Source: Scenedesmus sp. ARA3 (lineage: Eukaryota; Chlorophyta; Chlorophyceae; Sphaeropleales; Scenedesmaceae). Taken from it: a stretch of 64,000 nt of DNA. The notes beneath the pieces were generated by a model, which ran no database searches, was not told where the DNA came from, and saw only the letters and a list, made by a program, of their open reading frames with translations. Numbering within the stretch: position 1 is the first letter of the stretch; each line of letters opens with the position of its first letter. Made by a program: the position numbers and the translations under genes. The stretch spans positions 57,832 to 121,831 of the forward strand of contig RWJK01001447.1 in the NCBI GenBank assembly GCA_004335835.1. The letters are read 5' to 3'. Positions 11,990-62,184 of this stretch are shown here, one piece after another.

Positions 11990-14937
11990 TCAAGCGGTGC
12001 CAGCCAGCGTCTTGACCCACATGCCGAGGCTCTCAGGGTCCCTGCGCTCGCTGGGGTACTTGACAAAGCCCGACTTAGCCTTGGGCAGCATCACGATGCT
12101 GGGGAAGGTGGTCAGCCCCAGGTTGGCCTTGGCCCAGTCCTTGGCGTCACCATCAGCGTTGAACTTGGCCACGGTCACGTGGCTGCCGGCCAGGTCCTTT
12201 GCAAGCGCCTCAAAGTTGGGCTCCAGCGCCTGCAGCAAACAGCAGCAACAGCAACCCCAGGTTGCACTAAGCCCTGTTTGTTTTGGTGGAATGAGTTCAA
12301 TAAATCAATTGAGTTATTAATGTAAGAATTGCAGAAGATATTATGCTGACGCAAGTGCAAGCATGGCTGAAGCTGCACGTCTAGTGTGTGATGCAAAGGC
12401 AAAAATAGCCCACCACCCACCTGGCAGAACGGGCACCAGGGCGCGTACAGCACCAGCAGTGTGTCCCGCTCCCTGTCGCCACCCGCCAGCTTCTCCGCTG
12501 CTGCCTTGTCGATGCCCTGCACCGCGCTGCCGTTGATCCACAGGTCCCGCTCAGCCTTCTTCTGCTCGGTGCTGCCGTCAGCCTTCTTCACGTTGCCAGA
12601 GTGCAGGCCGCACTCCTTGGCTGTCGTGGTGCAGCAGCAAGTGCGGAACAAGGCACGGCGCGCACAGTCAGGGTACTGTTCATACAAGGGTTTGGCAGAT
12701 CAAGGGCTTGCATGCACAAGCCAGCTACATCAACATGGCACTGGGGAAGCATGGCATCGCTGCTCCTGCTGCTTCTTCCAGCAGAACCGTCCTGTCTGTA
12801 TAGATTGCAATGCCAACTCGCATGCCCACATAACATGTCACGAAGCGCAGTTTGTAACAAAGTCAACATAACAAGCGCGCTCGGGCCCTCACCTGTGGCG
12901 TCCTCCCACCACCAGCGGCCCTCGCGCTCGTGCTGGTTGGGCAGCACGGGCCGCGTGCACGGCTCGCAGCCGATGCTCACGTAGCCGCACTCGTGCAGCT
13001 TGTTGGTGGGCACGCCCATCACGCGCAGGAAGTTCCACACCTCCGCGCTGCTCACGTTGCTCAGCGGGTTGTACTTGATGAGGCTGCCCGGGCCGCCAGT
13101 GACACCCTCAAACACGGGGTCAACCTCCACAACGGGCACGGCCATGCGTGTGCCCGGGGACTGGTCCTTGCGCTGGCCGGTAATCCAGGCCTTCAGTGTG
13201 CCCAGCTGGCGGCGCAGCGGGCGCACCTGTGGCGTGAAAAGTAAGGATATGTGCAGGCAGGTGGCAGCGTCAACGTGGGCGAAAGGATAATACACAGTGC
13301 TGCCTAGTGTGCGTCCAGCGATCGCATGTCTGTATGCAAGACAAGTTGGCAGACTTGCATCTGACGCCAAGCTGAGCAACCTCAGCACCACACGCGCACG
13401 CCACCCAGCCAAGCAAACATGGTACCTGCCAGCCGCTGCAGAGCAATTGCAGTACTGCTAAGTGTGTAACCTATGGCCTGCGACACACTGCAACCCATCA
13501 CACAACTACAGGCCTATTTCCCGCTGCTGGCCGCACCTTGCGGACCCTGCAGCACTCCTGGTGGCCGTCCTCGTAGAAGGAGAACATGCCCTTGGCGCGC
13601 ACCAGCTCCATGCACTCCTGCGCGTCAGGGAAGGTGTACTCGATGCGGATGCCGTAGTGCTTCTCCACGGCCTCAAACAGCTGGTAGGTCTCGGGGTTGA
13701 GGCGGCCAGTGTCCAGGCTGCAGCAGATAGGTGAAAAGAATGCAGAAGCAGCAGCAGCAGCAGCAGTAGCAGCACAGGTGAGACAGCATCACGTCAGAGG
13801 CAAGGGAGGTGTCGGGGTTGAGACGCCCTGTGTCAGGCTGCAGAGAGGTGATAAAATTAGTGCAAAAGCAACAGCAGCAGAGGTCAGAAGATGGCCTGCT
13901 GCTGGGGTTGCCAGTTGTCCAAGTGCTTGCAGCAGTCAGCTGACACGCCCGCTAGCGGTGTGCTGCAGCCAACACAATAGTGAACAACTGCAGCTGTTTC
14001 CTAAGCCAGCACACCGTCAACCTGCTGCTGCTGCTGCTGCTGCTGCGTGTGTGTGCTGCTGCGCACCTGAACACGCGGTACTTCCTGCCAGTGAGGTGTG
14101 CATACTCAATCAGTGCCACATCCTCAGCGCCTGAAAAGGCAATGGCAATGTCCTCGCCAAAGTGCTCCAGGGCCTGCACCGCAACAACACATGCACAGCA
14201 GGCCCTATATTTGTAAACGCATGGCACCAGGATACTCTGTGCAGCTACAACTGGCGCTGCTGAAGGTTAGCGGGCGTCAGCGCCATTTGCAGCAGGTGTG
14301 ACTGGAGTTGCAGAAAGTTGCTGTGCATGTGAAGTGCACGGCAAGTAGTAGCACTGCCTGCGCTTGCTCACTAATGACAAGCACAGAGCCGTTGCATTAC
14401 AGCCCTTTCGGATGTTCAATTGCTGATAATGCCCTCCACCGCTGTTGCATGACAGCTGGTGCATGGGTGCAACTGCTGTGTCCGCTAATGCTTAGTAATC
14501 CTGCGCTGTAACCGAGAATTGCAGCATGCACAACTTGGCACGCAGGAACAGCTGCTACCAATTGTTTGTGCTTGTTTTACTCTGTTGCCTGCCCAAGAAA
14601 CATACCTTGTCCATGATCTCCAGAGGAGACTTGGAGTCCAGCTCCTTAGCCAGACCAGCCCAATCCACCTTGGCCTCCACAGCAGCGGCATTGGCCTGCA
14701 AAAGCAACCTGTGAGAAACGATACCATTTACCACGTGCATGAGCATTCTCAAGACCACTCACCACTGGCGCAGCCCTCACGACAGGCCTCAGGTGGATAC
14801 GAGAGGCATGGGGAGCCTGCACGCGGCTGGCGCGCATAGAACGGCTAGCCTGCGTAATTGCAAACGATCATGTCAGCGTACGTCGCGCTATATCGGGTGT
14901 TGAATGTCAGGGCCTAATTCCACACCTGCAGCTGCAT
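11990..14937 (-). CDS. APR: Plastid adenylyl-sulfate (APS) reductase
   Basis: APS reductase reduces adenylyl sulfate to sulfite with glutathione in the plastid, the committed step of sulfate assimilation. Exon 1 (14926-14937, only 12 bp) encodes MQLQ and joins exon 2 (14763-14849), an Arg/Ser/Ala-rich transit-peptide-like stretch. Next come [10 protein letters not shown] (about 14140), a Leu-Asp-Thr-Gly-Arg-Leu exon beginning at 13717, [18 protein letters not shown] with GHQECC, then [13 protein letters not shown], the [11 protein letters not shown] and REGRWWWED block, and KECGLHSGN. The four cysteines (ECC, CEPC and ECGLH region) match the [4Fe-4S] ligands and redox cysteine of plant-type APR. 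The C-terminus is a thioredoxin/glutaredoxin-like domain with WCPFC and [10 protein letters not shown]. Both halves look intact. It is divergent from the gamma-CA-like gene across 321 bp. Confidence 0.95.
13811..13840 (-). repeat. Intronic copy of an APS reductase exon head
   Basis: This matches the true exon start at 13688-13717 at most positions, including the CTGCAG acceptor. The two acceptor boundaries (13717 and 13837 on the minus strand) are exactly 120 bp apart. The copy is upstream of the real acceptor in transcript orientation. Confidence 0.8.
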
Positions 14938-15258
14938 GTTTGCCGAGTTGTGGAATCTGCGCCAAGAAGTGATGGCAGGCCTGCAGCGCTGCCTCTGATA
15001 ATTATCAAAAGGTGATGCACCCGGGATTACGCTTGCCTTAGAGCTTCAGGTACGTCAGCCCACCAAAAAGAGAACCCTGACAGGAGAGGTTTTGCTGGGA
15101 CTCATCGATCTGGCTCATCGCCTTCGAAGGTTTGCCAGGGCACACCGTTAACAGCGTAAGCATGTGCATAGGGCTGGCAGGGCTAATGTGCGTAGGAGTG
15201 ATCTGACCCTGCTCTGCTGCTAGTGCACCACAATAGGGGCCACGTAGGGCAGAGCAAT
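14938..15258. promoter_or_regulatory. Divergent promoter region (APS reductase / gamma-CA-like)
   Basis: These 321 bp lie between two start codons facing away from each other, so they should hold both promoters and 5' UTRs. I see no clear TATA box or known regulatory motif. Confidence 0.4.
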
Positions 15259-15693
15259 ATGAATGTGCTACGCAACAGGCTAGGATTTGCGCTCCGGGAA
15301 AGCGGGCAGGCTTTGGAGCGCCTAGGCTGTGCGTGGCAAGGCATCAACTCGCACGCTGAAGAAAGTAGGTCTCCTGAGCACTCTAGTTGGCTTGCAACGC
15401 CGTTCAGCACGTCGCAGATTACTGACAAAAGCCGTTTATGTGCGCAGTCACACGGTTGCAGCCAGTTGTGAATGCTGGCTACAAGCTGCCTCAGGTAGCC
15501 AGCACCAGCTGGATTGCACCCTCAGCCCAGGTGTCTGGTGACGTGAAAGTAGGCGACAACTGCTCCATCTGGTACAACTGTGCAGTCAGAGGTGCGCAGT
15601 GGCCAAGCAGCAGCTTGAGACCAGCACTGATCGCTGCCCAACAGCGCCAGCAGCTGCGGTTGGCAGGACTCCAGCGGCTGACTAGCTGCAGTT

Positions 15694-15728
<35 letters not shown>

Positions 15729-17293
15729 GCAGACAGAGTGTCGTCTAGAGGACGGCTGTCGTCTCAGAAGGTGCACTATCCACCTCGTGCTGCAGTTTCA
15801 CTGTTGTTGAGAAAGGCTCAACTCGTCAGCATTAATGAACGCACCACGACACCAGCAGTGCTGCTTCTGGTCTCGTGCCTGCCATCGCAACATCAAATAT
15901 CACCCTTTCTAGCACCACCAACAAGTGCTGTACCTCCTGTACCTCCTGCACGCAGGCGACAACCACCATGTTGAGATCGGGCACAACACCAACCTGCAGG
16001 ATGGCGTGTCAGTCGGCTCCTTGAGCCCCAGCAGCAGCAGCACCAAGATCGGCAGCGGCGTGTCGGTGGGCCACGGAGCAGTGCTGCAGGGCTGCACCGT
16101 TGAGGATAATGTGCTGATCGGCATGAACGCAGTGCTGCAGGATGGCGTACGGGTGAGCAGCAGCAGCAGCAGTAGCTGCAGGCAGGGCTTGGGGATCATG
16201 CGGTGGCGTTGGTCTTGTTGTTGCAGCGGCGTTGGCACTGGGGCAGTAGCATTGGTTGTGGCAGCCGCAGCAGCAGCGGGACACATCTGGCACGCAAGCA
16301 GTTGTGAGGAATTGTTGTGCGGCTGAGCAGCTGCAGTGGCATGCATTAAATGTGTTGAAACAGTCTCCGTCATGGATTGGATGGCGTGCAGTAGGCAAAG
16401 CGCCTGTGTGTGGCAAGGGCAACTTGTGCAGCAGGCGCGACGCCTAAGGAACATCTGAGGCGCTGTGGACCAAGCTGATTGCTGCAGCTGGTTCGTAGCC
16501 CACACGTGTACTCATCAAGCTGCCAGGCAGTGCAGTCGTCGGAGCACTACACACCTCAGCCTGCTGGTGCATTGTCGGAGCACTACAGACCTAGGCCTGC
16601 TGTGCCAGCAGCTGCTGGGAGGCTGCAGTGCATCAGCCGGCCATTTCGTGCTGCTGCCCGCCTAATCTGTGCTTTTGGGGGCACTTGCCTGTGCAGGTTG
16701 CCAGCGGGGCCATGGTTGCAGCAGGCGCAGTGCTGGAGCCTGGTGCTGCTGTGGCGTCTGGCGAGCTGTGGGCGGGCAACCCTGCGCGCAAGCTGCGTGA
16801 GCTGAAGCAGGAGGAGCTGGACTACCTGCAGTCGCTGCCAGGCAGGTGAGAGTGGTAGTAATTTGGGGGGATATGATACATCCACTGACCACTGCGATGA
16901 CACTGCCGGTTTGGCCTGGTGCTGTGTGCATGGGAGCTGGACTACCTGCAGTCGCTGCCTGGCAGGCGTGAGGATTTGCATGTGTTCTCAAGGCAGAGAG
17001 ATGCTAGCAACATTCTGAATGCACCTGAATGTTGATGGCTCTGTTTGGTGTCGAAACATTGGCGTGCACAAGATGGTGTCGTGGGAGGGGAAGTGTGGTG
17101 CTTGGCGGCGCAATTTGTGCTCGCTTTGTAGCAGTTCAGTAGTTTATACTCAGCTCATCGACCAACTAACTGCTTGTTGCTCCATCTGTTGCTTGCGTAA
17201 CACAGGTACCAGGAGCTTGCGGGACAGCACCAGAAGATCCTGCAGCACTTGAACCACAGAATCGAGAAGATTACCGGCGTGTACGACCACTGA
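15259..17293 (+). CDS. Gamma-carbonic-anhydrase-like (GCAL-type) hexapeptide protein
   Basis: The start MNVLRNRLGFALRESGQAL is the amphipathic N-terminus typical of mitochondrial gamma-CA subunits of plant/algal complex I. The following exons give a left-handed beta-helix: WIAPSAQVSGDVKVGDN, WYNCAVRG, DNHHVEIGHNTNLQDGVSVG, IGSGVSVGHGAVLQGCTVEDN, GMNAVLQDG, VASGAMVAAGAVLEPG and GELWAGNPARKLREL, ending in a helical tail (QHQKILQHLNHRIEKITGVYDH). The Zn site of active gamma-CAs uses three His. Here VGHGAVL keeps one, but the QDxxxVH histidine is Gly and the second His of GHxAVLHGC is Gln. It therefore resembles the catalytically silent GCAL subunits that are structural in complex I. Exon 1 is clear; its junction to the WIAPSAQ exon near 15370-15460 is uncertain. 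Confidence 0.88.
15692..15726. repeat. (CAG)n microsatellite in intron
   Basis: An uninterrupted CAG run lies in the intron after WYNCAVRG of the gamma-CA-like gene. Confidence 0.85.
16538..16606 (+). repeat. 36-bp-period tandem duplication in gamma-CA intron
   Basis: GTCGGAGCACTACA is followed by closely related sequence twice, starting at 16538 and 16574. It lies in the intron before the VASGAMVAAG exon and spans no exon. Confidence 0.8.
16934..16968 (+). repeat. Intronic copy of a gamma-CA exon tail
   Basis: The 35-bp tail of the exon encoding ELDYLQSLPGR (16814-16848) recurs exactly 120 bp downstream with one or two changes. The copy's donor has become GGCAGGCGTGAGG through an extra C, which should weaken it. 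Confidence 0.85.
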
Positions 17294-21745: not shown

Positions 21746-21780
<35 letters not shown>

Positions 21781-25849: not shown

Positions 25850-28725
25850 ATGCAAACGCGAGTGCAAACATCGGGAACACGGCTGGCACGGCAACACAAT
25901 GCTACAACGGCAGCAGCAGTAGTCAGGCTACACAGCAGCAGCAGCAGCAGCAGCAGCAGGCTCAGGGCAGTGCCAGTAGAGGACGAGCAGCAGATACCAG
26001 CAGGAGCAGCGAACGTAAGTAGCAGCACAATGAGGTTAATAGGACGCTCAGCAGCACGCCTTTCAACGACAGTAGACGTCTGCCTGACGTGCACATGTGC
26101 AGCCAGCTGAGGGGCTGCCCGTGGGGGCTGCAAGCATATGTCAAGAATTACTTGTCATGCTCCCAGGACTCTGAGCTCCTGCTGATTCTGTGCAGGTGTT
26201 GGAGCAAGTGCGGGTGGTGCTGGTAGCACCCAAGACGCCTGCAAACATTGGGGCTGTGGCACGTGCCTGTGCCAACTTTGAGGTGCGCCTGCCAGCCGGA
26301 CCAGGCACTCCACAGCAGCAGGCAATACCTAACATGCAGCTGTTCGAGCTCACTACCTTCAAGCCTTACAGCAATGTCACATGTCATGCAGACCACCAGC
26401 CTGTGGGTGGTGGCTCCCCGGTGCGATCCTTATGATGGCGAAGTTGAAAAGGTGGGTGGCCATCCGCAGCAGTTGCGGAGTGTCTATTCAGCTGTCACAG
26501 CTATGCTAGAGTGCAAACAAAGCAGCTGCAGCATGCTGCCATCAGACCTATCAATAGGTGCATGCAAGACAGGAACGATGCACGGCTGCTCTGATTCGCT
26601 GGGCAGCAACTGCTTCAGGCACTGCCGGTGCAGCAGATGTGCCACCAACGCACACACTGTCTGTCTTTCTGTAGCGATTTGAGCACTTGCTGCCATGCTT
26701 TTTGCTGCGACGGTGCTGATTAACCAACTATGACTGGGACGCTGGTGCTGCAGCTATCAAACGTGTTGTGGTGCTGCTCTGTGTCGTCAGGTTGCCTGTG
26801 GCCCAGAGGTATTGAAGCGCATGACTGTGGTTGACGACTTGCAGCAGGCGCTGAGTGACACCATAGGTGGGGGAGCACAACAGGTCCTAGCACCCCGCTG
26901 CATCCCATCATGCAGCCTTCTGTGCTTAACCCAAGCTTGACAGTATTATGCACACCGCTCTGCTTCCTTCGCTCGCTTCCAGCATCTTGCCGGCTGTTGT
27001 TTCAGTGCGTGCGTGCATGGTGATTGCTTGTCACGTGCAGCTCAAACACAGCTGCTGACTGTGCTGCTGCAGGCAGCGTGGGGTTCACCAGGCGGGCAGG
27101 TGCCACCAGGTACACACATGGCAGCATGGCAGAGCTGCTGCAGAAGTACCCAGCAGCCATTGCAGCCCTGGACCCAGCACTACACGCCAGCCAGCAGCAG
27201 CAGCAGCAGCAGCAGCAACAAGGGCAGCAGGATAGTGTACTAGGTGAGCCACGGCTGACGCCGACAGAGGGACGTTAGCTTTGAGAGAGACGAGCCGCTT
27301 TCACATACAAATACTCATCTGCATGTCAGAGAACCATACACTTTTTGCGGTGCCTCACCCTAATCCATGTCACAAAGTACAGGAGGGTGCAGATCGTTGT
27401 AAGCTGCCCCTTGCACTATCAGCCACCAGCAACTCATCTTGCCCCACAGCCCAGCCTGCAACACATCACCGTATTCTTCCACAGGCAACACACCCTGCCG
27501 TAACCGTTTCACCACCTTCTTTGTCACCGCCAGGTCAAACCGCGCTGGTGTTTGGGCGTGAGGAGTCAGGCCTAACCGAGGCCGAGCTGCGGCTATGCCG
27601 CCACTCCTGCGCCATCCCCACCGGCCGCATCCAGGGCAGCATGAACCTGAGCCACGCAGTGGCGGTGGTGCTGGCCGGCCTGTTTGAGCGGCGGCTGGCG
27701 CTGCTGGGGCTGGCTGACCTGGGCATAGAGGTGTCAGGTGGGTAGCTGTGCAGCAGCAGCAGCAGTAGTAGCAGCAGCAGCAGCAGCAGCAGGGTGGTTT
27801 ACGGTAGCTGATTGGTGGGTTCTTGGAGGCTGGTGGTTGGCAGCAAAAGCACACATGCGATGCGCGCACCTTACAGTGCAAACAATCGTGTTTGGTTGTG
27901 CGCTGGTGTTGCGGATGTGATCTGCTGGGGCTGGCTGACCTGGTCATAGAGGTGTCAGGTGGGCTGTGGCATGGTGGCTGCTTTGTGGGAGCTTGGAGGC
28001 TGCTGATTGGCAGCAGGAAATTCGCATGTGATGTACGCACCTTGCAGTGCGAACTGTACGTGTTTAGGCGTGCGCTGATGTTGGGCATGTGGGCTGGCGA
28101 CACGCTGACATGTACTGCAAAGGCATGAAGGTGTAGCCAGCATCGATCTTTCAGTGATGACGGTCATCACGCCTGCTCCTCCTGCATGCACAAAGCTTGG
28201 CTAGACAGCAAAATTATGTCCGTGTGCACCTGACTGCTGTGCTGCAGGCAAGCAAGAGTCCTGGGAGGGCCTGCAGCCTGCAGCTGCCTCAGAGCTGTCA
28301 GCACTCCTGGCCAAGGTTTCTGCCATTGCTAAGAGCGTTGGGATGAGCGGGAACGACAGCAGGGGCGGCGGCGCGCAGGGCAGCCACGGCAGGCGGCGGC
28401 TGCCGCTGGGCCACATCCGGGCCATCCTGTCACGTGCACAGGCCAACACCTGGGTGGGCACCATGCTGCTGCTGCTGCTGCTGCGGATGCCTCTGGTTGC
28501 TTTGCTGCTGCTGCTGCTGCACGTAGCGTTCGACTTGCTGGCATGCTTGTAAATTATGCTCAGCAAGCACCTGGTGCATCAGGCGATGGGTATTCTGACT
28601 CGTGTATGCTTGCTTTGTGCTGCTTGCAGGAGGTGCGCTCCCTGCATGGCCTGGCATCTGCAGTGCTGAAGCACGTGAAGGAAGACACGACAGCAGATAG
28701 TGGAGACGGCACGAGCAGCAGCTAG
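25850..28725 (+). CDS. SpoU-family RNA 2'-O-methyltransferase (TrmJ/TrmH group 1-like)
   Basis: Exon 1 (25850-26014) encodes a Ser/Arg/Thr-rich organelle-targeting-like leader. The next exon opens in phase with VLEQVRVVLVAPKTPANIGAVARACANFE, the substrate loop with the conserved Asn and Arg of SpoU enzymes. Later exons include a helical segment, a Gln-rich insert (CAG run near 27192-27215), then the SAM-binding knot: TALVFGREESGLTEAEL, CAIPTGRIQGSMNLSHAVAVVLAGLFERR. The knot motifs (GRExxGLT, SxNLSxAV) are intact. TrmJ-type proteins methylate ribose 2'-OH in tRNA; the exact substrate is not deducible. The C-terminus ends DSGDGTSSS. The exon tail ending near 27736 is tandemly duplicated in the following intron. 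A candidate TGTAA lies at 28804-28808. Confidence 0.9.
27700..28092 (+). repeat. Tandem duplication of exon tail plus intron in the SpoU gene
   Basis: The exon end CTGCTGGGGCTGGCTGACCT at 27701 recurs at 27922, with the same downstream GAGGTGTCAGGTGGG. The following intron sequence is also paired: TTGGAGGCTG at 27823 and 27993, and a GCGCACCTTACAGTGC-like segment near 27865 and 28035. Copy one is longer, mainly because of a (CAG)n expansion at about 27752-27792. Confidence 0.85.
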
Positions 28726-29152: not shown

Positions 29153-32100
29153 ATGGCCGATTCAAAGTATTTTTCCACCACTAAGAAGGGTGCGTAGCTG
29201 CGTCATAGCTGCTGAGCAGCCGTAAATTTGGCGGGTGCTGACAGTTGCCTGTGGGGGGTCCTGCTTCTGTGCTCCTGCAGGCGAGATCCATGAGCTCAAG
29301 GAGGAGCTCGCGAGCTTGGACCGCCCCAAGAAGAAGGAAGCAGTGAAGAAAGTCATTGCAGCGATGACAGTGGGCAAGGACGTGTCCATGCTGTTCCCCC
29401 ATGTTGTCAACTGCATGCAGACAGAGGACCTGGAGCTCAAGAAGCTGGTGTACCTGTACCTCATCAACTACGCCAAAACACAGCCTGATCTGGCTATCAT
29501 GGCAGTCAACACGTTTGTCAAGGTAAACAGCACTCCACAGCAATGCTGCACCTACAGGATGTGCTAACGAAGAACAGTAGCAGTACAGCACCTGCACTTG
29601 CGCTGCAGCAAGCACTTCACAGTTGTGCTGTTTTGTTCTTTCTTGCAGGACTCGCAAGAGCCTAACCCGCTGATCAGGGCTCTTGCAGTGCGCACCATGG
29701 GCTGCATCCGTGTGGACAAGATAACAGAGTATCTGTGCGACCCGCTGCAGCGCTGCCTCAAGGCAAGTGGCAGCAGCTGCTGCTGCAGTGGCAGTGGCAG
29801 TGACTGCTCACCCAGTAACAGCTGCAGCGGCATTGGCAGCGCTAAGCAGCTGTCGACATGGACGGGTGGCATGCTTTGCGTGCTTGTGCTGCTGTAGGTT
29901 TGTGGACACATGCAACAGGCAGGACAAATTGAGCATGCTTGTGCCAGCCTCCTGCAGTGTGCACAGCAAGCTGAGGAGTGCACAACCACATGCGTACAGC
30001 AGCTGACATGCGTAGCACTGCTTGCAGGACGATGACCCATACGTGCGCAAGACAGCAGCGGTGTGCGTTGCCAAGCTGTTTGACATCAACCCGGAGCTGG
30101 TGGAGGACAGGGGCTTCCTGGACATGCTGCGGGTGCGCAGCAGCGGCAGCAGCATAGCAAGCAGCAGGGGGGCACAGCAAGCGGCAACGGCGCAGCAAGC
30201 AGCAGCAGCAGCACGTCGACCAGCAGTGGCACAGCGAACGGCAGCAGCACAGCGAGTGGTAGCTGCACTGGCAAAGCAACTCGGCAGCAACAGCAGCAGC
30301 GGCGACAGGAGGAGCACAGGAGGCAGCAGACGGAGGCATTGTAGGCAGCAACGCCAAAGCAAATGACGACAGCAGTTGCTCTTGGAGGAGTGCACGCGCC
30401 CTCCGCAGCAGGAGCAGATAGCTGTGCGCTGCGGTGCATGGTGTAATAGCAGCAACTGCAGCAGTCGCCTGCCAGGCAGCCTTTGCCTACCACACAGGGC
30501 AGCCGTGCTTTTGTTGTCCAGCTAGACACCACCCGCAGCAGCAAAATTGAGCATGCAAGCTGAGTGTATGGCTGCTTCGTCTGCTTGCTGCTACTTGCTG
30601 CTGCTGCTGCTGCTGCTGCTGCCGCAGGACATGCTGTCTGACGCCAACCCCATGGTGGTGGCGAATGCGCTGGCAGCGCTGCAGGAGATCCAGGAGATCA
30701 GCGGCAAGGAGGTGCTGCAGATCACCAGCCACATGCTGTTCAAGCTGCTGGCAGCGCTCAATGAGTGCACAGAGTGGGGCCAGGTGCGCGGCAGCGCGGG
30801 CGGGGGTTGCAGCGGCGGCAGCAAGTGGTTGCAGGGGTGTGGCGGGGTGTATATGATTGCATCGTAGATGCATGGTGCAGCATGCAAACATGGCTTTTGG
30901 TTGCAGACGTATCATCTGTACCAAGAGACAACTGAGCATGCATGTCTGTGACAGCAAGCAAGAAGTGGCTGCCTGCTTGCTTGGCTGCTCATAGTGCGTC
31001 TTGTATCCCCTTGCTGCTGCTGCTGCTGCTGAATCTGCCAGGTGTTCATCCTGGATGCGCTGGTGAGCTACCAGGTGCAGGACTCCAAGGACGCGGAAAA
31101 GATCGTGGAGAGGGTGCTGCCGCGCCTGCAGCACGTGAACTCAGCTGTGGTGCTGTCAGCTGCCAAGGTGCGGCCTTCGCTGCCAGCGAGCGTGTTGCTG
31201 CTGCTGCGGCGCGTACTCCTGTATGCGTCCTCACTGTGCCATGTCATCCTGCATCTGCAAGGTTCGATTGCATCGTCTCTCAGGCTGATAGGAGACGCAT
31301 TCGAACCGTGCAGATGCCGGATCACATGACAAGTGTGAGGGCGTGTGAGAGGGTGTGTGCGCAAAAGCTGTGCAGCTTGTCCCTATTTGCATGGCACAAG
31401 CTGCTGCCAACAGCTGCTGCATCTTCAGCATCATGCAATACGAACCCAACTGTCCAATCCATCACGCGTGCACCACCCCGCAGCTGCTGCGAGCGTTTGG
31501 CAACATCCATGGCTGCACCTACCGCAGGTGGTGCTGCATGATGAAGGGGGTTCTGCGTTTTTGTTGTGTCACTGCCGCTGCTGCTGGCGCAAGCCTATCC
31601 ACCAGCCCAACACATCAAACGTGCACCATCACCCACCTCACGCTTCTGCCTCTGCCTTCACACAGCTGCATCAGCTCAGCACACAACGCTGCATTCAAAC
31701 TCTTTTGTCTCATGCTGATACACGCACCGCAGGTGGTGCTGCGCATGATGTAGGAGGTGCTGCATCGTCGTCGCCACACATCACTGCTGCTGGCGCAAGC
31801 ATATAGCACACCTAAACATCGCTGCATATGTACCGCAGGTGGTGCTGCGCATGATGGAGGAGGCGCTGCATCTTCATCGCCACACATCACCTGCTGCTGC
31901 CGCAAGCATACAGCACACCTAAACATGGCTGCATATGTACCGCAGGTGGTGCTGCGCATGATGAAGGAAGTTCTGCATCTTTGTCACAGAATACTGCTAC
32001 TAAACTCTGCCGCCTCATGCTGCTGCACGCAATACAGGTGGTGCTGCGCATGATGGAGGAGGTGCGCAGCGAGGAGCTGGTCAAGGCGTGGAGCAAGAAG

Positions 32101-35100
32101 ATGGGCCCGCCGCTGGTCACGCTGCTGAGCGCGGAGCCGGAGGTGCAGTACGTGGCGCTGCGCAACATCAGCCTCATCGTGCAGCGCTGGCCCTCCATCC
32201 TGGCGAATGAGGTCAAGGTGGGGATGCTGCTGCTGCTGCTGCATGCGCGGGGATAGGAGCAGCGGAGGTGCTTATGCTTCTGTGCATGTGTTGTATGTTT
32301 GGCCGCAGGTGTGGTGGTGGAAGAGGTGACTTGGGTTGCTGAGGCTTGCTAGTGAAGGCAGGATGTGATGCTGGCAGCAGTATGTTGCAATTGGAGTGGG
32401 TTGTGCGGCTGCACGTCAGGCACGCTACTTGTGTGCTTGTGCTGCGGTGCAAGCCCTTTCAGTACGTTACAATGAGTGACATGTTCCACGTGTTTTTTTG
32501 GCTTGGCCGCTGACTGTTATGCCACGCAGGTCTTCTTCTGCAAGTACAACGACCCCATCTACGTGAAGATGGAGAAGCTGGAGATCATGATCGCGCTGGC
32601 CAGCGAGCGCAACATCGACCAGGTGCTGCTGGAGTTCAAGGAGTACGCGCAGGAGGTGGACGTGGACTTCGTGCGCAAGGTGAGGGGTAGGTTTTTGGCA
32701 TGTGTTTTAGATGCAGTGTTGAGTTCAAGTGCAGCAGGAGGTGGACGTGGACTTTGTGCGCAAGGTGAGTTGACGGCGGCAGCAGCAGGTGGGCAGTGGC
32801 TGCATGCAAAGACAGGGCAAGGGCAGGGCAAGGCAGCCATGCAGTCAGGCCAGGCGCACCCAGCACCAATACATGCTGGCAGGGCAGCCAGGCCAGACCT
32901 GCGTCAGCGCCGTCACAAGCATCCAGGGTAGCTAGGCTAGACGACTGAAGCATGAATATCGTTTCAAGCATGGATTTGCCGCGCGCAGTTAGCGTCCAGC
33001 CAGTGTCCAGCTGCGGCTAGTTTGAACTGCAATGAAAGGCTATCGCAGCGTTCTCCAGCCTTACCCAGCTTGTTGAGCTGCTGACACCCGTGTGCTTGTG
33101 TCCTGCTGTGCCAGGCTGTGCGCGCGATCGGGCGCTGCGCGGTGAGCCTTGAGAAGGCTGCGCAGCGCTGCATCAGCGTGCTGCTGGAGCTCATCCAGAC
33201 CAAGGTCAACTACGTGGTGCAGGAGGCGGTCATCGTCATCAAGGTGGGGCAAGCGCAGGCCACGCTGGCGGCTGTTGCGGCCGCAGGTTGGAAGGTGTGC
33301 CTGCACGTGCAGGTGCAGGCGCAGCTTGCGGCTGCTGTTTCCATTGCATGAGCAGTTGATGCTGCCACATGCTGCCGCGAAGGCAGCAGATTCTTTATAT
33401 ATTTCCTTGCTGCGCGCTGCAGCATGCCGCCGTTGGCTGGGATCAATGTGATTATGTGTCTTTTCTGGTGTTGCACCTCCTGCTTGCAGGACATCTTCCG
33501 CCGCTACCCCAACCAGTACGAGTCCATCATCGGGCAGCTGTGCGACAACCTGGAGTCGCTGGACGAGCCCGAGGCCAAGGCCAGCATGGTGTGGATCATC
33601 GGCGAGTACGCAGACCGCATCGACAATGCAGACGAGCTGCTGGAGACATTCCTGGAGACCTTCCCAGAGGAGACTGCCATGGTGCGCTGTGTTTTGTGTT
33701 ATGTTACGTTATGCTATGTTATGTATGTGGCAGATGAGGTGCTGCTGCTGCATGCATGTCTGCTCAGGGCTGCGCATGCGCAGGCTGCGTGCTGGCGTGC
33801 TTGCCATTGTGATTGCAGCTGCAGCTTTCTGCACTGGAGCCTCGCGTAGCGCTAGCTTTCTTATGCACAGCCTCTTCTGCATCAACCCTGCTGTGCCCAA
33901 CCACTCATCGCGCTGGCTCATTTCCTTGCTTATCGCTGCTGCCCGAGCAGGTCCAGCTTCAGCTGCTGACTGCCACGGTGAAGCTGTTCCTCAAGAAGCC
34001 CACAGACAGCGTGCAGCGCATGATCCAGCTGGTGCTGTCGGCAGCCACCAACGAGACAGACAACCCCGACCTGCGCGACAGGGCCTACGTGTACTGGCGC
34101 CTGCTCAGCACCGACCCTGAGGTGCGCAGGCGGCTGTGGCCCTTCGCTTAATGTTTTTTTGGGGAGCAGCACTGCAAGTGTCTGGAATTTCCAATGCGCA
34201 GATGCACCAGAGGACCTTGCTTATGTTTCCTCGTTCTGCGCATGCTGTGATATGCAACCCCTACTCTCATACCCTTTCTCTCTTGCCTGCCTTTGTTGCT
34301 ACTGTTACTGCCGCCAGGCTGCCAAGGACGTGGTGCTGGCCAACAAGCCGGTCATCACCGACGACTCCTCGCAGCTGGAGCCCGCGCTGCTCAAGGCGCT
34401 CATGGAGCAGATCAGCAGCCTGGCCAGCGTGTACCACAAGCCAGCAGACACCTTTGTCAGCAGGCAGCGGCTGGCAGTGCAGACCGTGGACACGCTGGCG
34501 GCAGCACGAAGCTTCGCAGAGGAGGATGTGGCAGCAGCAGCAGCTGCTCCACAGGTAGGTAGATAGAGGAGTTACATCTGTGAGTTCATGCGGCTGCGCC
34601 GCGACAGACACCTGGTCAAATAGGTAGCTGCCCCGCAGGTAGGCGTGCTGTCGAAGGCAGGTGGCAACAGACGTGCTGGCCGCAGACATACTCTGTTACG
34701 GTTGCTTAGAGGGTCTTACTGGGTGTCAGCTCTACATGATGCATGCTAGCTCCACTCACAAGTCAATGTAAGAACCTAGAGTAACCACCGGCATCCTGCT
34801 GTGTTGTGTGTTGTCTGCAGGCCACTGGCAATGGCGCCCCAGCAGCTGCTGCTGCTGCTGTCAGCTCAGCGCCTGTTGTTGACCTGCTGGGTGAAGACCT
34901 ACTAGGGGACAGCACGCCAGCAGCAGCACCAGCAGCGCCAGCAGCGACTCCAGGTGAGCTTGGGCAGATTAACAAGCAGTCTGCTGTATGCTTGTCTGTG
35001 TTTCGTGCGGTGACAGGCCTTCAACAACGCCTTTTCGAAACCGTCGGAGGCGGCACAAGTACGTGCATGCACACCACGCGTGGCAAGCGGGACGTTGTGG

Positions 35101-37128
35101 ATGTTGCCTGCTGCATCTGCTGTGCCCCTTTTTCAATCGGCTGCTGTTATGTTGCTGCTTTTGCTCAACGTTCTGTGCATCAGGCGGCCTGGATGACCTG
35201 CTAGGAGGCCTAGATGTGGCTCCAGCAGCAGCAGCAGCCCCACCAGCAGCAGCACCCACAGCAGCAGCAGCAGCAGCAGCAGACCCCTTCGACTTGCTAG
35301 GGGGCATGGCAGCAGCAGCGCCAGCAGCAGCAGCAGCAGCGCCGAGCCTGCCGCAGCTGCTGGGCGGGGAGAAGGGCAAGGGGCTGACTGTGTATGGCCA
35401 GCTGCAGCGAGTGGGAGGGCGCGTGGTGTACCAGCTGCATGTCAACAATGGCTCAGCAACCAGCGTGGATGGGCTGATGCTGCAGGTGAGAGGGCTGGCT
35501 GCTGTGCTTGTGCGATGCAGCTGCAGGCAGTTGCTGTGTGCGGGCGGCAATGTTGTTTGTCTATGCAGTGACAGTGAGGGCGCCGGCAGGCTGCGGTTAC
35601 AGAGATACAATGACTGCGGTTACAGAGATACAATGACGGGCTGTGTCACCGCTCGCAGTGTTGTGTCTGTTGGGTGTGCAGCAGCAGTAGTAGCCAGCAG
35701 CATCGCGCACAGACCAGCAGCTGTGTCTCTATATTGTAGCTTAGCAATCAAAATGTGCGTGTGGCTGCTGCAGGTGAACAACAACAGCTTTGGGCTGGCG
35801 CCTGCAGATCAGAACGTGGCTGTGGGGACGCTGGCCCCGGGCGCCCGCGGCAGCGCGGCAGTGCCTATGGCCTACAACCCTGCCAAGCTGGCGCAGGGCC
35901 CCGCAAACATGAAGCTGCAGGTGCGTTGTTACATTGCAGCAACCCCTGCATAGCGCATGGCATGTGGGCAGCTGTGCGCATGTGTGGCTCTGATGACAAG
36001 TTCACCTCTTTTCACCTGGGTAGGCGATGTGCTTGCATTGCTGCTGCTAATTGCTGCCTCCGCGTAGCACTGCTCCCCGCCACCAACTCTCCGACCTCAT
36101 GCCTCTGCTTTGCCCCCACATCTTAATTGCAGGTGGCCATGCGCAGCAACCAGCTGGGTGTGTTTTACTGGGACGACAACATCCCACTGGCTCCGCTGCT
36201 GGAAGAGGGCGGCACAATTGATGGCCAGGCCTTTTTAGCGGCTTGGCGTGGCCTGCCTCAGGAGGCAGTGCAGAAGCTGGATGTTACCATTGCAGATGTT
36301 GAGGCAGCCAAGGCGCGGCTGGGGGCAGTGAACCTGTTCGTGCTGGCGCACCGGCCGGTGAGTGTGCGGTGGTGGTTCGTGGGGGTACCGCAGTGCGTGT
36401 CAAAGCCTGCTTAATGGCGCTTGGCATGTGTTGGTGGCGTGGGGCAGTTAACCTGTTTGTGCTGGCGCATCGGCCGGTGAGTGTGCCACTGATGTGGTGG
36501 TGGAGTGTAGTGGGGTGTGAGAGTGCAGCAGTTGCATGCGCTGTCTGTGGTTGCGGCTGCTTTGCTTGTGGCGCCTTGTGTTTGTGTGGGTTACCCTAGC
36601 GTGTGCGCTGGGCAGGCTGTGGTGTACAATGTGGTGTTGTTGGTATTTGAAGGCACTGATGTTTTCATGCAAGTGTTTTGTGCTCAACGTCAGCAGTAGG
36701 CAGGCCATGGTGTTTGTGGTTTCAGGTGGTCTGAACACAAGCTACCTGTAACTACAACCAGCAAAGCCTGCTCAATGTGCTGCTAGAGTGTTGCTGCTGC
36801 TGCGCCTGTGCCCTGCTGTATGTAGTGTTTAACACGCTCAGATCAGCACACGCGCTGTTGTGTGATCTTCTTCCCCTCACTTGTCTCAATAATCATTGTT
36901 TGATGTTGACGCTGCGTGTCGCCGCTGCTGCTGCTGATGTTTTACGTGCAGGTGCCTGGCACGGGCCAGGATGCGCTGTACGTCACTGGGCGCGTGTTTG
37001 GGTCCACGCAGGTGCTGCTGGAGCTGCGGCTGATGCGCGGCACACCAGGCGTTGATGTGTCATTCAAGAGTGAGCGGCAGGAGCTGGCGGCTGCGGTGTT
37101 TGCTGTGGTGCGCAGCAGCCTTACGTGA
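29153..37128 (+). CDS. AP-1/AP-2 complex beta-adaptin
   Basis: This is the large beta subunit of a clathrin adaptor complex, acting at the trans-Golgi or plasma membrane. Exon 1 (29153-29189) encodes [13 protein letters not shown] and joins the exon from 29281 ([23 protein letters not shown]). The trunk is highly conserved: [96 protein letters not shown]. An Ala/Pro-rich hinge has repeated Asp-Leu-Leu-Gly motifs ([22 protein letters not shown]), which resemble clathrin-binding sites. The C-terminal ear ([22 protein letters not shown]) ends near 37125. Estimated length is near 900 aa, normal for the family. AP-1 and AP-2 beta cannot be separated by eye, and algae and plants often share one beta. 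Several introns carry exon-edge duplications. Confidence 0.95.
31231..31338 (+). repeat. Long imperfect inverted repeat (foldback) in beta-adaptin intron
   Basis: Arms at about 31231-31278 and 31291-31338 are near-complementary. CATCTGCAAGGTTCGATTGC pairs with GCATTCGAACCGTGCAGATG, and the outer parts also pair. The loop is about 12 bp. It could be a MITE-like foldback element or an RNA hairpin. Confidence 0.75.
31521..32060 (+). repeat. Array of decoy 3' splice sites copied from the next exon head
   Basis: The true exon starts at 32038 (GTGGTGCTGCGCATGATGGA). Copies with their CAG acceptor lie at 31525, 31730, 31836 and 31943. Copies two to four repeat with a 106-107 bp period and share the intron spacer (TCGCCACACATCAC, AGCACACCTAAACAT). 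The second copy has an in-frame TAG and the first has lost three bases. Confidence 0.9.
32721..32770 (+). repeat. Intronic copy of a beta-adaptin exon tail
   Basis: The exon tail at 32632-32686 (GAGTTCAAG ... GTGCGCAAG plus GTGAG donor) recurs with a 6-bp internal deletion and a few changes. The copied donor is intact. Confidence 0.9.
35592..35637 (+). repeat. Perfect 23-bp tandem repeat in beta-adaptin intron
   Basis: Two identical adjacent copies start TGCGGTTACAGAGATACAAT. They lie between the SVDGLMLQ and VNNNSFGL exons and span no exon edge. Confidence 0.9.
36441..36485 (+). repeat. Intronic copy of a beta-adaptin exon tail
   Basis: The exon tail and donor at 36322-36366 (encoding [11 protein letters not shown], then GTGAGTGTG) recur 119 bp downstream with three substitutions. 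All are synonymous if the copy is read in the same frame. Confidence 0.9.
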
Positions 37129-41323: not shown

Positions 41324-41636
41324 GGTGACCGTAAGTCGTGGAGACTTGCGCACGATCAAGAGCCGAAATGAGATCAGCACCCAGCTGTTCTGGAGGTAAA
41401 GCTGGGTATGAAAGACACGTGTGTTCTGCGAATGCCTTTTGTATTTGTGAATTGATGTTCTATGTTTGTTCACAAATCGATGGTTGTGGTATGCAATACC
41501 GTTTGCTGCGTGTGCAGTTGGTGTCATTGACGACATCGAGTCACACCGGCGAATAATCTTGGACATGAGCGTTTGTCAGCTCGTTATGATACGTGTACCT
41601 AGCAACCGCCTTTTCAGTGCTTCATCTCACTAGTTC
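41324..41636. promoter_or_regulatory. Divergent promoter region (HHE protein / P450)
   Basis: About 310 bp separate the proposed starts of two head-to-head genes. I see no clear TATA box. If the longer HHE N-terminus is real, the shared region shrinks to about 70 bp. Confidence 0.4.
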
Positions 41637-44600
41637 ATGTTTGTTTTTGGACTTGTCGATCTTGTCGATCCTGAGACGTCGTTCCTGCGTGCGTACATAA
41701 CGCCAGCAGTACAGCTGCGAGAAGCAAGCAAACTCGGCAGGACTGGAGCAAAGATCGCGGCGTCTGCAGCGGTGAACGTCCGACAAGGTACGTCGAGCGC
41801 GGTAGCAGCAGCAGCGGCAGCAGTAGGTGCAGCAGCTCTGCATGCACAGAGCCTGCCTGCTGCACATGCTCAGGCCTGAGACATGTCTCTCAGCCAAGCA
41901 CAAGCAGCAGCACAAACAGGGTTCTAATACGCACGGTCAAGTCACGAATGTGCCGACATGTATCCATATCAAGCACAAACGTGTCTTCGTGCTTGTTGCG
42001 CGTAGTGCCGCACTGTATTTGGGGCCGGCCCCGCCTCCTTGCACCTCTCCTTCAGTCCACCAGCATGGGCTAGCGCCTTGCTCAACGCAGCTGCGTGCTG
42101 CAGGCCTGCACCAACATTCACAGCAACACTATTCGTGTTCTGCGCTGATTGTGTAAAGATATGGTCCAGCTGCCTCTCGCTTGCACTCTTCTCTGGCTCC
42201 CTGCCTCATGTGATGTGCACCTGTGCCGCCTGTTGTTACACGTGCTGCCACCTGCCACATCACCAACCAGATGTCGCTGGGTGCGGGCGAGGAGGTGCGC
42301 TTCTACCTCAACCTGCTGCGCAACAACTGGCTGGGGCCCAAGTTTGACCTGCTCAAGATCCCAGGGCCACCGGGCTACTGGGGCGCAGGTGAGGCAGCGG
42401 CAGACATATCTGCGCCAGCTGGCGCAAAGCCACAGACTGTGGGTCCATGGTTGAAAATGCTCCTAGCAGCAGACAGTCAGCTGCTCAGCTGCTGAGCACG
42501 CATCGCCAGCCAACATGCGTCCAACGAAAGAAAATGCCATTGCTCAGCTGGCTACACAACACTAGATGCCTACACATGTGTCAAATACAGCTGTTTCCAC
42601 TGCCATGCATGCAACCGCCTGCTGCGCACAATGCATCCCCTTGGACAATGTTTCACCAAACACTGAACCCCACCACGCCTGCCGTTATGCCCTGCTATGC
42701 CCCACCCCCCAGGCCACATCCCCTACCTGATGCGCCCCGACTTCCACGGCAGCTAATGTCACTGACAATGCGTTGCAGCGACAGGTCGCCAGTTTCCCCT
42801 ATAGCATATCATCAACACCCAACCACACTCAGGTGCCGCTTCCTTACAAAGGCTGTGTTTGCGCTCACTGTCGCCTCCTTTTGCACCAACCTGCAGGCCA
42901 CATCCCCTACCTGATGCGCCCAGACTACCACGTGCAGGCGCTGGAGTGGGCCAACAAGTATGGAGGCATCTGCAGGTTCAGCCTGGGAGGGCAGCACATC
43001 GTGCTGGTGTCAGACCCGGCGCTGGTGCAGACGCTGCTGGGGCGGGGGCCCGGCAGCCTGCCGCGCAAGTGAGTGCAGGCGAGGGTCCAAGAGCAGCCTG
43101 AGTGCAGCCATGACACAGGGTAGACAGTATAGTCTGATGAGGTGCAGTCCAGCAGCTGGTTGAGATGCTGCGTGGGCAAGCTTACCAAGGCTGTGGAGCA
43201 CTAGTAATTGGCAGAAACAGAGCAGCATCGCCATGCCGATGCGGCATCTGGCAGCTTGCTGCAGCCTGTCAGCCATGTCTTTGCAGCTCCAGCCTACTGC
43301 TGACACTCGCTGCATTTGCCACCTGCAGTCCGCACACCTGCCGCTGCTGCATTGCCTTCCCTGGTGCATTGGCCGCCAGTTCTTCGACCTGGCCACCAAT
43401 CACCACTGAGATGGCTACTGCAGCAGCTTTGATGGTTGCTGCAGCCGCCATCTGCATGCCACCTGCCCCTGCTGCTGCACTGGCCGCCAGGTGCAATGGC
43501 CACCAGTCCTTGCATTTGTTGCTGACATCTGCTGCCTGTGCACTCGTCTGCGTGTGGCTGCACTTGCCTCCAGGTGCATCGGCTACCAGTTCTTTGACCT
43601 GGCCACCAACCACCTGGGCAGGCGCAGCTTCTTCACCACCACCGATGAGGAGCAGTGGCTGCTCATACGCAAGGGCACAGCACAGGCCTTCTCACAGGCC
43701 AACATCAGGTGGGCACAGAATCGGTTGCAGCCATGAACAGCGGGTGCAGCTTCAACGAAGTTAGACAAGCAAGCTTGCAGCGCTTCTGATGCTGGCCACT
43801 GCAAGTCAGCAGGCTTTGGCTGCAGCCTGGTGGATGGCTGGCTTGCTGCAAAGCCCAAGGCACTGCTGCATGCATGCACAGCCTCAATCAGGCCTGACTG
43901 TGTGTGTTAACACAGCATGATGCTCTGCTGCCTCGCGCTTCCACGTGCGTTGCTGCAGGCGCTACTTCACGTGTGCGCTGAAGCACGCGCAGGAGCTGGC
44001 TGATCAGGTCAAGATCACAGCAGCCACCAGCAGGGCGGGCTGCGTGGAAATGCAGGAGCAGGTGCGCTTTTATGCCAAGTTCATCCGTAATAACAAAAAT
44101 TAGCTGTGCCAGAATGCAACTGTAGGGCACCAGGAGCAGGTGCGCTGCCCACAACACAGTTACTCGGTCCTAGGGCTCGCCTGTCTTGGCTCACCGGTCG
44201 TCCATGCAGCGCCTGCAGCACTAACTGGCAATTCCTGGCAGCTATTCATATTGATGCTCATGGCCCTGTGCTGTATCCACTCAAACACTACAACTGCTGC
44301 CCACTCACCCACACACACTCACCGCAGGTGGAGATGATGCTGCTTGATGTGTTCCTTGAGGGCCTGTTTGAGGTTGATCTGCGTCGCGTGAACAGCGAGG
44401 ACATCAGCCACGCCATGAACACGGTGCTGCTGGAGGCCAACGAGCGCATCAAGTTCCCGCTGCGCAAGATGTTCGTCAACCTGGTCAGCCCACGGGTGAG
44501 AAGACTTTGCTACTTGAGCATTGTTTCTATGTGCTGGCATGTTGTGCATTGCATCAAGTTCCCGCTGCGCAAGATGTTCGTCAACCTGGTCAGCCCGCGG

Positions 44601-47600
44601 GTGAGCGAGTTATGGATACTTTTAGAATGTGCGAGTGTTTTAGGTTTTGGTGCCAGAGGTTTGTCAGTGTTGCAGCCCATGCAAAGGAATTGTCCGGCAG
44701 CCGGTTATTCCTTTGGCATAGGCTGCAGCGCTGGTGTTTACATGCGCCATTTTGCCCGTAAGCAGGCAGTGGTGGCCATGCGCTGTCTGCCCTGCAACTG
44801 TGTGCGTGTTCGACTGCTGCACATGTTAAAGCTACATTGTTCCACATCCCATGCTTTGAAGTCAGGCCGGTCTGTGTGATAAGCGCACGGGTGAGCGAGA
44901 TGGCTGCACAACTCAATTGTAATTGTGCTGCATTGCTGGGACTTGGGAGTATCTGGCTTCACAAGGGATTTGCCCACTATGTCTCTCATAGCGCCAGCAG
45001 CACCGCGGTTTAGTTAGTGCACTGCTGTAGCTTGAAGGACCGTTGTCAACTGAGGGTGCCATAACATAGCACCTCAACTTGACAACGGTCCTGCAAGCAA
45101 CGGCAGCAAAGGTGCTCAGAGAGGCCCTTTGGGGTGGGTGTTTTTATTGCTTCACATCTTCTCAACAGCAAATGCGTTGGCTTGCTGGACTGAGAACAAT
45201 AGGCTGCAGGCTTCCAGAGCCATGATGTCTTAAACAGGCCTATCATTTGTATCAGAATCATTGCCGTTGTGCGGACGAGCCGCAACAAATGCACTTGAGC
45301 TGGTGCTGCAGTGGGAAGTACTATGCATTGTGGGTTCTACTGTCGACCCACAACATCAGCACTATCACCTGCCTGCGCACACAACAGCACTCAATACCAC
45401 CGCCAGCACCCTGCAACCCTTTCTGCTGCACCTGCCTCTGCAGTACTCTCAATTCAACCTGCCGCACTTTCTAATCGCTGCACTTTTATATCTGCCCCGC
45501 AGTGGTCGTACAAGGTGTGGTCGGCGCAGCACGTGCTGGGTGGCCTGTACGAGCGCATCTTCAACACCATGCGGGCACGCGGCGTGCCGCCTGAGGATGA
45601 GACGGTGCTGTGGGCCTGCCTGGCGCGGCTCAAGGACCCGGCAACAGGTGCGGATGTGTGTTGGGCTTGCAAGCAATGTATGTATGTTACAAGAGAGCAG
45701 GGATACACACACATTTGCACGCATGAATAGGTTACTGTGGGCCTGCCTGGCACGGCCCACAGACCCGGCCACAGGTGTGGTTGTGTGGCTGACGCGAAAG
45801 AGATGGACACAATGCACAACTGCCCGCGTGATGCTGCAAATCTTCTGTCAAGATGTGCTTGCTTGTGGTGTGTTATAGCAAGGATGATTACGCAGGTGTA
45901 GGGGCTCCCGCCCGTTTGTATGCCTCTAAGGCAGGTGTGCACACGTGGGTTCGTTGGTGAATGAACCTGCTTGAGCATACCTACCTTAGAGGCATACAAC
46001 AAACGCATCTGAAGGCATGCATGCATGTATGTGTTGTTGGTTGTGGCTCTGCTATAGAGTATATACCTGCACACACATGATGCGTGTTCATGTGACAGAC
46101 AAGCAATAGGCATATGCCTGCTGTGTGAGTCACAAGCATACCTGTGCATGAAGAGTGCTTGCGCGGCTCGTGCCAAGGGCTAGCCGGCAGGTGCAGCCCC
46201 CTTTCTATGTTTTCTTGCACTCCTGTGCCACGAGTTTGATGTGTGGTGGCTGGGCGCTCTAAGCCTAACTTTCACAGCAGTTTTCAGGCTGTTTAGGAGG
46301 GTGCGTTGTCCTCGGATGAACCAAGCGCCGCCAGGTCTGCAGCAGAACCGAATCTCTCACTGGTGTGTCTGTGGTCCTTGCTGTCACATGGCGCATGCTG
46401 CTCGTGCCCTGCCCCGCGCTGCACTCAGCTGACCTTTTTGCCCTGCGCTGCCTCACCTTGTGCCTGCAGGCAAGCCGCTGACACAGGTGTATATTTGTCG
46501 ACAGACATAGCTGTAGATGTGCATGCACCTGATCGCCCTGCAGTTCCTGATGCTCCCGCTCTGCCCTGCGCTGCCTCACCTGTTGCCTGCAGGCCAGCCG
46601 CTGACCAAGCAGCAGCTGCTGCCAGAGATCGGTGCCTTCATCCTGGCAGGCTTCGACACATCAAGCCACACCATCGCCTGGTGCCTGTGAGTGGCGCTGC
46701 TGCTGCTGCTGCCAGTGGGTAGAACACGAGAGAATGCTGTACTCGAATGATGGTAGCAGCTGCGCTGCCCGCACATTTGGCAAGTGCCACACCATCGCCT
46801 GGTGCCCGTGAGTGCTGCAGGATGCAGCAGCACGCTCTGCATGCGGTTGCAGTGCGCTGAAAGGTAGACACTGTCGCTGCGCTGATTATGTGCTGCCAGT
46901 ACAGTTGGTTCACCACAAAGACACAGGCCAAATCAGCAACGTGTACAAGCATTCAGAAGCTGAAGTGCTGCTGCTGCTGCTGCTGCTGCTGCCACATGGC
47001 CTTGCTGCTGCTGCTCCTCCTGCTGCAGCTTCAACATTGCGGCGCATCCTGAGGTGCAGCGGCGCATCAAGAGTGAGCTCAGCGCATCAGGGCTGCTGCA
47101 CGCGGGGCAGGTGCGCTGCATGCATGCGGCTGCTTGGCACGGGTTTCAGCACATGCCGTTGGTTGTGCACGCAGCGAGTCTGTTGGTGCAATGTATGAGG
47201 TTCGCTGCTGAGATTCCAGCAACATCTTACAGACCATGCACAAGGTCATGATTATCAGGGGCATTATACTCAGTTGCCTTCTTGCTGGCACCAGTCCGTC
47301 ACATTTGCCGCGCTTTGGAGTTTCAAAGCTGTATGCTCTTTGCACAATGATTCAACTCCAGCTTGCTTCATGCGCTGCACCACACACCACAACATGCAGG
47401 GCAACTGCGTGACACCGCGCCAGCTGTCCTATGAGGACCTGCCGCGCCTGCCCTACCTCAACGCAGTCATCGATGAGACCATGCGCATGTACCCAGTGGC
47501 AGCAACAGGCAGCGTGAGGTGGGTGTTGCTCTATGCATGTGGTACAAGGCCAATGTGACTGGATGCGGCATCACAGTAAATGCTGCCATGCATGGCCAAA

Positions 47601-62134: not shown

Positions 62135-62184
<50 letters not shown>

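Follow-up and report, generated by a model that had tools for sequence, protein, structure and literature searches.

The window, a stretch of 64,000 nucleotides of Scenedesmus sp. ARA3 DNA, is part of a contig labelled C1072 in an assembly of 87 Mb and 1567 contigs. Its GC content per 2 kb ranges from 0.51 to 0.68 and the median predicted intron measures 372 bp; the excerpted account of the T. obliquus genome gives a GC content of 57%, 7.8 introns per gene and a mean intron of 462 bp (PMC5966456). CAG/CTG repeats are very abundant window-wide, for example at 1402-1505 and 62136-62237. Five genes concern us here: Pfam domains mark a PAPS reductase (PF01507, minus strand), a SpoU methylase (PF00588), a beta-adaptin and a P450, and in a gamma-CA-like gene a hexapeptide repeat (Hexapep) match falls below the Pfam cut-off. 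The beta-adaptin model was built by hand (17 exons, 29153–37128, 938 residues, open frame). Six algal beta-adaptins were compared with it one exon at a time, and the closest are from Tetradesmus obliquus and Scenedesmus sp.; several exon matches to T. obliquus show 95–99% identity and others are lower. A protein search with the raw stretch returned two animal proteins of low coverage as its top hits by E-value. One beta-adaptin intron begins with GC at 29763-29768 (AAG/GCAAGT), as needed for the open frame, and another contains a perfect 23-bp tandem duplication (35591-35637) distant from exon edges.

A small gene finder trained on this one hand-built gene was used to predict exons elsewhere, and gene models outside beta-adaptin are thus computed predictions. 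It was run on the window and on 20 10-kb stretches from 20 other contigs; the sampled DNA, whose loci bear the prefix L, amounts to 264 kb plus ten short loci out of 87 Mb. In the window the gene finder placed one donor 6 nt off (46681 for 46687) and miscalled intronic copies as exons at 32738–32764 and 44559–44600. Gene finders elsewhere may likewise mistake such intronic copies for exons.

Across the five genes, twelve exon edges are found again as a copy in the adjoining intron on the expected side (Table 1). A scan of the window for gap-free local direct repeats (offset 20-1500, low-complexity words removed) yielded 22 repeat pairs, compared with none in each of five block-wise Markov shuffles; this list, like the repeats from the P450-family loci and the list of 76 events discussed below, under-counts whole-unit repeats, as the filter dropped long ones. 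In a later window scan, 12 rows had an offset of 80-310. All but one of them meet a predicted exon edge; the exception, 31784-31981, forms the central part of the array on the acceptor side in beta-adaptin. A gapped search anchored at predicted exon edges recovers 11 of the 12 edges, adding the APS reductase case; the acceptor-side pair 46439/46562 was found by the gap-free scan alone. Two matches outside the five genes, at 6228 (offset 537) and at 10432 (offset 94, without splice site), were left uncounted. The splice dinucleotide, GT or AG, is intact in 10 of the 12 copies, the copy at 16933 having GC and that at 43363 lacking AG. The first-pass annotation, which had described exon edges copied with their splice sites into neighbouring introns of five genes, is borne out by these counts, as is its statement on orientation: every tail copy lies downstream of a donor and every head copy upstream of an acceptor. 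In Table 1 order, the offsets are 120, 120 and 221 bp, an array of about 107-bp steps, and 85, 119, 184, 210, 105, 127, 123 and 121 bp; the value of about 120 bp that it had put forward thus has exceptions.

Table 1. Duplicated exon edges and their intronic copies in the window
Feature	Position	Strand	Remarks
APS/PAPS reductase exon, acceptor-side head copied	13537..13717	-	offset 120, 35 exon nt, 88%; PF01507
Intronic head copy with AG, APS/PAPS reductase	13803..13843 (approximate ends)	-	linker 13718-13802
Donor-side exon tail, gamma-CA-like (hexapeptide) gene	16813..16846	+	offset 120, 97%, gap-free
Intronic tail copy, gamma-CA-like gene	16933..16966	+	donor GT changed to GC
Donor-side exon tail, SpoU methylase gene	27701..27742	+	offset 221, 98%; PF00588
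Intronic tail copy, SpoU methylase	27922..27963	+	intron sequence after it, 27973-28083, 77% like linker
Acceptor-side head, beta-adaptin exon 32038-32217	32035..32065	+
Four upstream head copies with acceptors, beta-adaptin	31516..31981	+	starts 31516, 31721, 31827, 31934; core period 107 bp
Donor-side tail, beta-adaptin exon 32530-32679	32649..32684	+	offset 85, 97%
Intronic tail copy of beta-adaptin exon 32530-32679	32734..32769	+
Donor-side tail, beta-adaptin exon 36133-36357	36322..36367	+	offset 119, 93%
Intronic tail copy of beta-adaptin exon 36133-36357	36441..36486	+
Acceptor-side head, P450 exon	42894..42932	+	offset 184, 95%
Intronic copy of P450 head 42894..42932	42710..42748	+
Acceptor-side head, P450 exon	43573..43614	+	offset 210, 88%
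Intronic copy of P450 head 43573..43614	43363..43404	+	AG lost; weaker middle copy 83 bp before real head
Donor-side tail, P450 exon 44328-44495	44446..44500	+	offset 105, 98%
Intronic tail copy of P450 exon 44328-44495	44551..44605	+	flanking introns without detected homology
Donor-side tail, P450 exon 45503-45647	45608..45660	+	offset 127, 87%
Intronic tail copy of P450 exon 45503-45647	45735..45787	+
Acceptor region and head, P450 exon starting 46593	46562..46605	+	offset 123, 93%
Intronic copy of acceptor region and head (P450 exon 46593)	46439..46482	+
Donor-side tail, P450 exon starting 46593	46665..46693	+	offset 121, 97%; GTGAGTG from 46687 (gene finder: 46681)
Intronic tail copy of P450 exon starting 46593	46786..46814	+

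The pattern extends beyond the window. A gapped search with the edges of 204 predicted exons found correct-side copies at 30 of 178 donor edges and 20 of 181 acceptor edges, after 16 donor and 15 acceptor edges had been dropped for low complexity and further ones for short introns. About one in seven sampled exon edges (50/359) thus has a recognisable self-copy in the adjoining intron; 6 of the 50 matches stop short of the splice site. The controls are low, yet above zero: searches on the wrong side matched at 4/171 donor and 5/174 acceptor edges, exon centres at 2/71 and 1/72 (3/143 together), and reverse complements at 2 donor edges and no acceptor edge. Ten P450-family loci beyond the sample, two of which overlap (contig C346), gave 11/64 on the correct side, 3/61 on the wrong side and 2/40 for exon centres. 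In the sampled DNA, copies are commoner at exon edges and on the expected side than in the controls.

The offsets are far from evenly spread. Among 76 merged events scoring at least 20, a few of them counted twice because L029 and L030 repeat parts of the window, 38 have an offset of 80–140 bp, 6 of 140–200 and 11 of 200–240, followed by a thin tail with none above 680. Three shuffles, searched at a looser score of 16, gave 8, 7 and 4 events, none of them at 80–140 bp. Compared with shuffled DNA the clustering at 80–140 bp is real, and a second mode lies at 200–240; chance was rejected on the window and sample shuffles alike. Within 80–145 bp the mean offset is 117 bp (28 matches). Outside the L018 array, 7 of 13 second-mode pairs contain a middle copy (p<0.01), located 83–110 bp before the second copy; two of these 7 belong to one window array. 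For offsets of 80–145 bp, the exon part of the unit measures 16–83 nt (mean 44; 16–63 nt in 28/29) and is far from uniform in length (KS p=2e-6), and the intron part measures 37–106 nt (mean 72); 4 of the 29 exon-part values equal the predicted exon length and are capped by it, which makes the L024 7203 value too small. The standard deviation is 14 for the offset, 15 for the exon part and 18 for the intron part, and the two parts correlate at -0.66. With an offset tighter than its parts and parts that are anticorrelated, what is controlled appears to be the length of the unit.

Repeats of this class are concentrated at exon–intron junctions. In a test limited to annotated loci, with positions randomised, 24 of 39 loci with offsets of 80–145 bp are in contact with an exon edge, where 8.2 ± 2.5 were expected and no more than 16 occurred in any of 500 random placements; for 80–245 bp the figures are 31/47 and 10.8. 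The concentration asserted in the first-pass annotation is thus real. In simulations, duplications lying wholly within introns are detected about as well as those across junctions up to d=0.05, at 0.74–0.93 of the junction rate at d=0.08, and at a lower rate in older events. Fifteen loci at 80–145 bp lie off junctions; two of them resemble unannotated exon edges by eye (L009 3785 and L024 2260; no Pfam family), and a further one, L010 971, codes for WD40. Tandem Repeats Finder (TRF) rows, grouped by hand, gave twelve arrays with a period of at least 90 bp; 8 overlap a predicted exon or lie at most 60 bp from one, L009 3785, L017 541 and L024 2158 are of ambiguous placement, and L024 3985 contains no exon sequence. 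The last of these, a 45/133-bp array at L024:3985-4313 with no predicted exon near, is the clearest exception to junction placement. The repeat at L017:541-1172, with a 243-bp period and 2.6 copies, looks coding by eye and falls outside the class of about 116 bp.

That the underlying event is a tandem duplication spanning the exon–intron junction, as first proposed for the window, is well supported by whole-unit repeats. Repeats at least as long as their offset, as in a small direct tandem duplication, occur at 109 bp in L009, at 112 bp in L018 and at 116 and 140 bp in L027, and the TRF arrays hold 2.0-6.4 copies. At L018:8938-9657, seven 112-bp units lie in an intron, each consisting of exon tail, donor and linker; by eye the exon part is less variable than the linker, and the intron after the last unit is unrelated. 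For two window stretches we searched for an allelic or second copy showing the unduplicated state and found none.

Homology extends through the linker and the intron after it in 13 of 42 junction pairs, and the other 29 can be aligned in the exon half only (an earlier anchored test of linker homology gave 15/44). The young pairs, 13 in number, differ at 27 sites without regard to codon position (6/12/9 at positions 1/2/3), and across all pairs 11 of 15 gaps are of ±1 nt; the copies therefore look like neutral relics, free to drift. The 29 pairs without alignable intron halves show 21/34/75 mismatches, a third-position excess expected once synonymous changes have had time to accumulate in the real exon; at about 2.7-fold it exceeds the value of at most about 2 that a neutral copy should give. 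In a decay simulation with an indel ratio of 0.3, 24-48% of intron halves stay detectable at exon identities of 0.89-0.92, in line with the observed 13/42, whereas a ratio of 0.15 leaves 72-90%, above the observed value; the decay account thus hinges on the assumed indel rate. Two pairs do not fit it. At L024 7186-7267/7314-7395, 82 nt of an identical head copy adjoin an unrelated intron, and the window pair 44446/44551 is 98% identical with linkers that show no homology, while at such high exon-half identity the simulation predicts detectable flanks in at least 83% of cases. Exon–copy conversion, a linker exchanged at a later time or filler insertion may each account for these odd near-identical pairs. 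Probes from intron edges match deeper in the intron in 25/352 cases, compared with 12/877 in the control; in 7 of the 25 a clear copy of the exon edge accompanies the match, and the rest are chance, low-complexity or intron-only repeats.

On the basis of these results, we consider it probable that segments of about 116 bp across junctions are recurrently duplicated in tandem, that the outer splice site restores the transcript, and that the copies then fade neutrally. Segments of roughly 85-145 bp would be duplicated repeatedly; on the donor side, tail/GT-intron would become tail/GT-linker-tail′/GT-intron, and an acceptor-side event would be the mirror image. Judging from open frames and homology, the outer site would still yield the normal mRNA, which lets the gene survive, and the inner copy would become intron. 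This inner copy would drift neutrally. Its exon half would have one constrained partner and its intron half two unconstrained partners; the intron half would fade faster for that reason, so that of older events just the exon edge and its splice site would still be recognisable. Repeated rounds may give rise to arrays of 3-7 copies and to about half of the spacings of about 215 bp. Filtering by splicing would presumably favour units with little exon and much intron, and may set the position of the unit relative to the junction. By analogy, the duplications may originate in fill-in at staggered breaks. CTG runs are found directly upstream of several duplicated acceptors and might promote breakage there. 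The tandem-duplication account leaves the junction excess and the step of about 116 bp without explanation, and the rarity of duplications confined to introns cannot be put down to selection. Junctions might be the target of a mutational process, connected perhaps with transcription, with chromatin or with splicing, that works with a fixed ruler of about 116 bp. Such a process would steadily lengthen introns and stack splice sites, and duplications confined to introns would be rare because it is inactive there; we regard this as conceivable, if rather unlikely.

Several other routes to the same pattern can be envisaged. A staggered break spanning the splice site might have received new filler sequence, which would duplicate the edges but not the linkers. 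The 29 of 42 pairs without linker homology would then need no decay, and both the 82 identical nucleotides between unrelated flanks in L024 and the unrelated intron after the last unit in L018 would be expected. However, whole-unit repeats exist, the offset is tighter than its two anticorrelated parts, and decay explains most of the lost linkers if indels are common. Moreover, four linkers searched in the 87-Mb genome match only themselves, and we judge filler insertion improbable. The unique linkers weigh equally on an introner-like or other mobile element with long target-site duplications. Such an element would agree with direct repeats flanking an inserted stretch of fairly constant size, but linkers of the sampled loci share no sequence beyond CTG/CAG-type runs and the duplicated exon length varies from 16 to 83 nt, which renders this origin scarcely credible. 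Gene conversion from the exon, refreshing intronic edge copies after their linkers had diverged, would suit the minority of near-identical exon copies beside unrelated flanks; it is unnecessary for most pairs and should have converted the linkers too while these were still alike, and we give it a very low probability.

The greater similarity of exon halves, compared with intron halves, raised the question of selection on the copies. They might act as alternative or decoy splice sites with exon-derived enhancers, for instance in unproductive splicing. GT or AG is kept in 38 of 42 copies, a retention that is partly by construction since 8 of 50 matches, which extended into the intron by under 2 nt or lay more than 400 bp away, had been dropped before the count; it is close to the level expected after drift of roughly 7% per site. 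The scores of donor copies are comparable to those of real donors (8 better, 8 equal and 8 worse; n=24), while acceptor copies tend to score below real acceptors (12 lower, 6 higher; n=19, p=0.085). Considered as sequence features, intact splice sites and their scores would prove neither use nor disuse of the copies. The third-position excess of the older class speaks for constraint; against it stand the codon-blind mismatches of the young pairs, the prevalence of ±1-nt gaps and the offsets of 19 donor copies bearing a splice site (85-142 bp; sample and P450-family loci), which spread 6/7/6 modulo 3 and show no bias to multiples of three. For most pairs selection is made less likely by codon-position counts, gaps and the decay simulation, and functional copies are accordingly quite improbable as a general explanation. 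At window positions 44446-44605, tail, linker and tail copy form one stop-free frame by eye, and owing to the 105 nt without a stop the inner donor, if used, would add 35 residues. The suggestion that the duplications had moved exon boundaries found no support in beta-adaptin, whose hand-built model is collinear with the Tetradesmus obliquus protein.

With about one sampled exon edge in seven recognisably copied, this genome is a dense natural record of small tandem duplications at splice sites, the youngest still arrays of several copies and the oldest nearly effaced. Such a record would allow measuring the tolerance of genes for additional splice sites, the lengthening of introns, and whether junction DNA is especially prone to duplication.

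The first-pass annotation had related the pattern to intron gain by tandem duplication of an AGGT-containing segment (Hellsten 2011, as presented in sections of PMC3443670 and PMC4974935). According to these sections that process is, like ours, a short genic duplication tolerated since splicing removes one copy. Here, in contrast, an existing intron is lengthened and no new intron is seen, and about one in seven sampled exon edges is affected, with a preferred unit. Nor is AGGT enriched: duplicated donor edges end in AG in 13/23 cases versus 98/180 (p=1), and duplicated acceptor edges start with GT in 4/19 versus 45/184 (p=1). The AGGT model was rejected on this ground and the proposed link falls with it; a GTGAG donor (10/23 versus 42/180, p=0.045) is the sole nominal difference among four tests. 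Among the sample matches, no tail copy runs up to the acceptor preceding the next predicted exon, as would be expected of a gained intron equal in length to the unit duplicated. In potato RdRp, as an extract of PMC4974935 relates, a tandem duplication took in upstream intron–exon structure, and an 83-bp duplication lies within another intron. Introners and break-repair intron gain, in the portions of PMC3443670 and PMC4974935 that treat them, resemble our cases in that introns change with flanking direct repeats; unlike them, the loci studied here have no common element sequence, with no inserted sequence common to many loci, and no gained intron. Fill-in at staggered breaks by CST–Pol alpha-primase is a known route to small tandem duplications and, like the events here, leaves direct tandem copies; in PMC8355091 its unit length depends on the spacing of opposite-strand nicks, with overhangs of 43–49 bp, as against about 116 bp and a concentration at exon–intron junctions here. 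Titles and abstract openings in the open-licence PMC literature, among the matches listed, contain no description of junction-straddling duplications genome-wide; as far as these listings reach, the frequency at exon edges, the junction preference and the step of about 116 bp are new.
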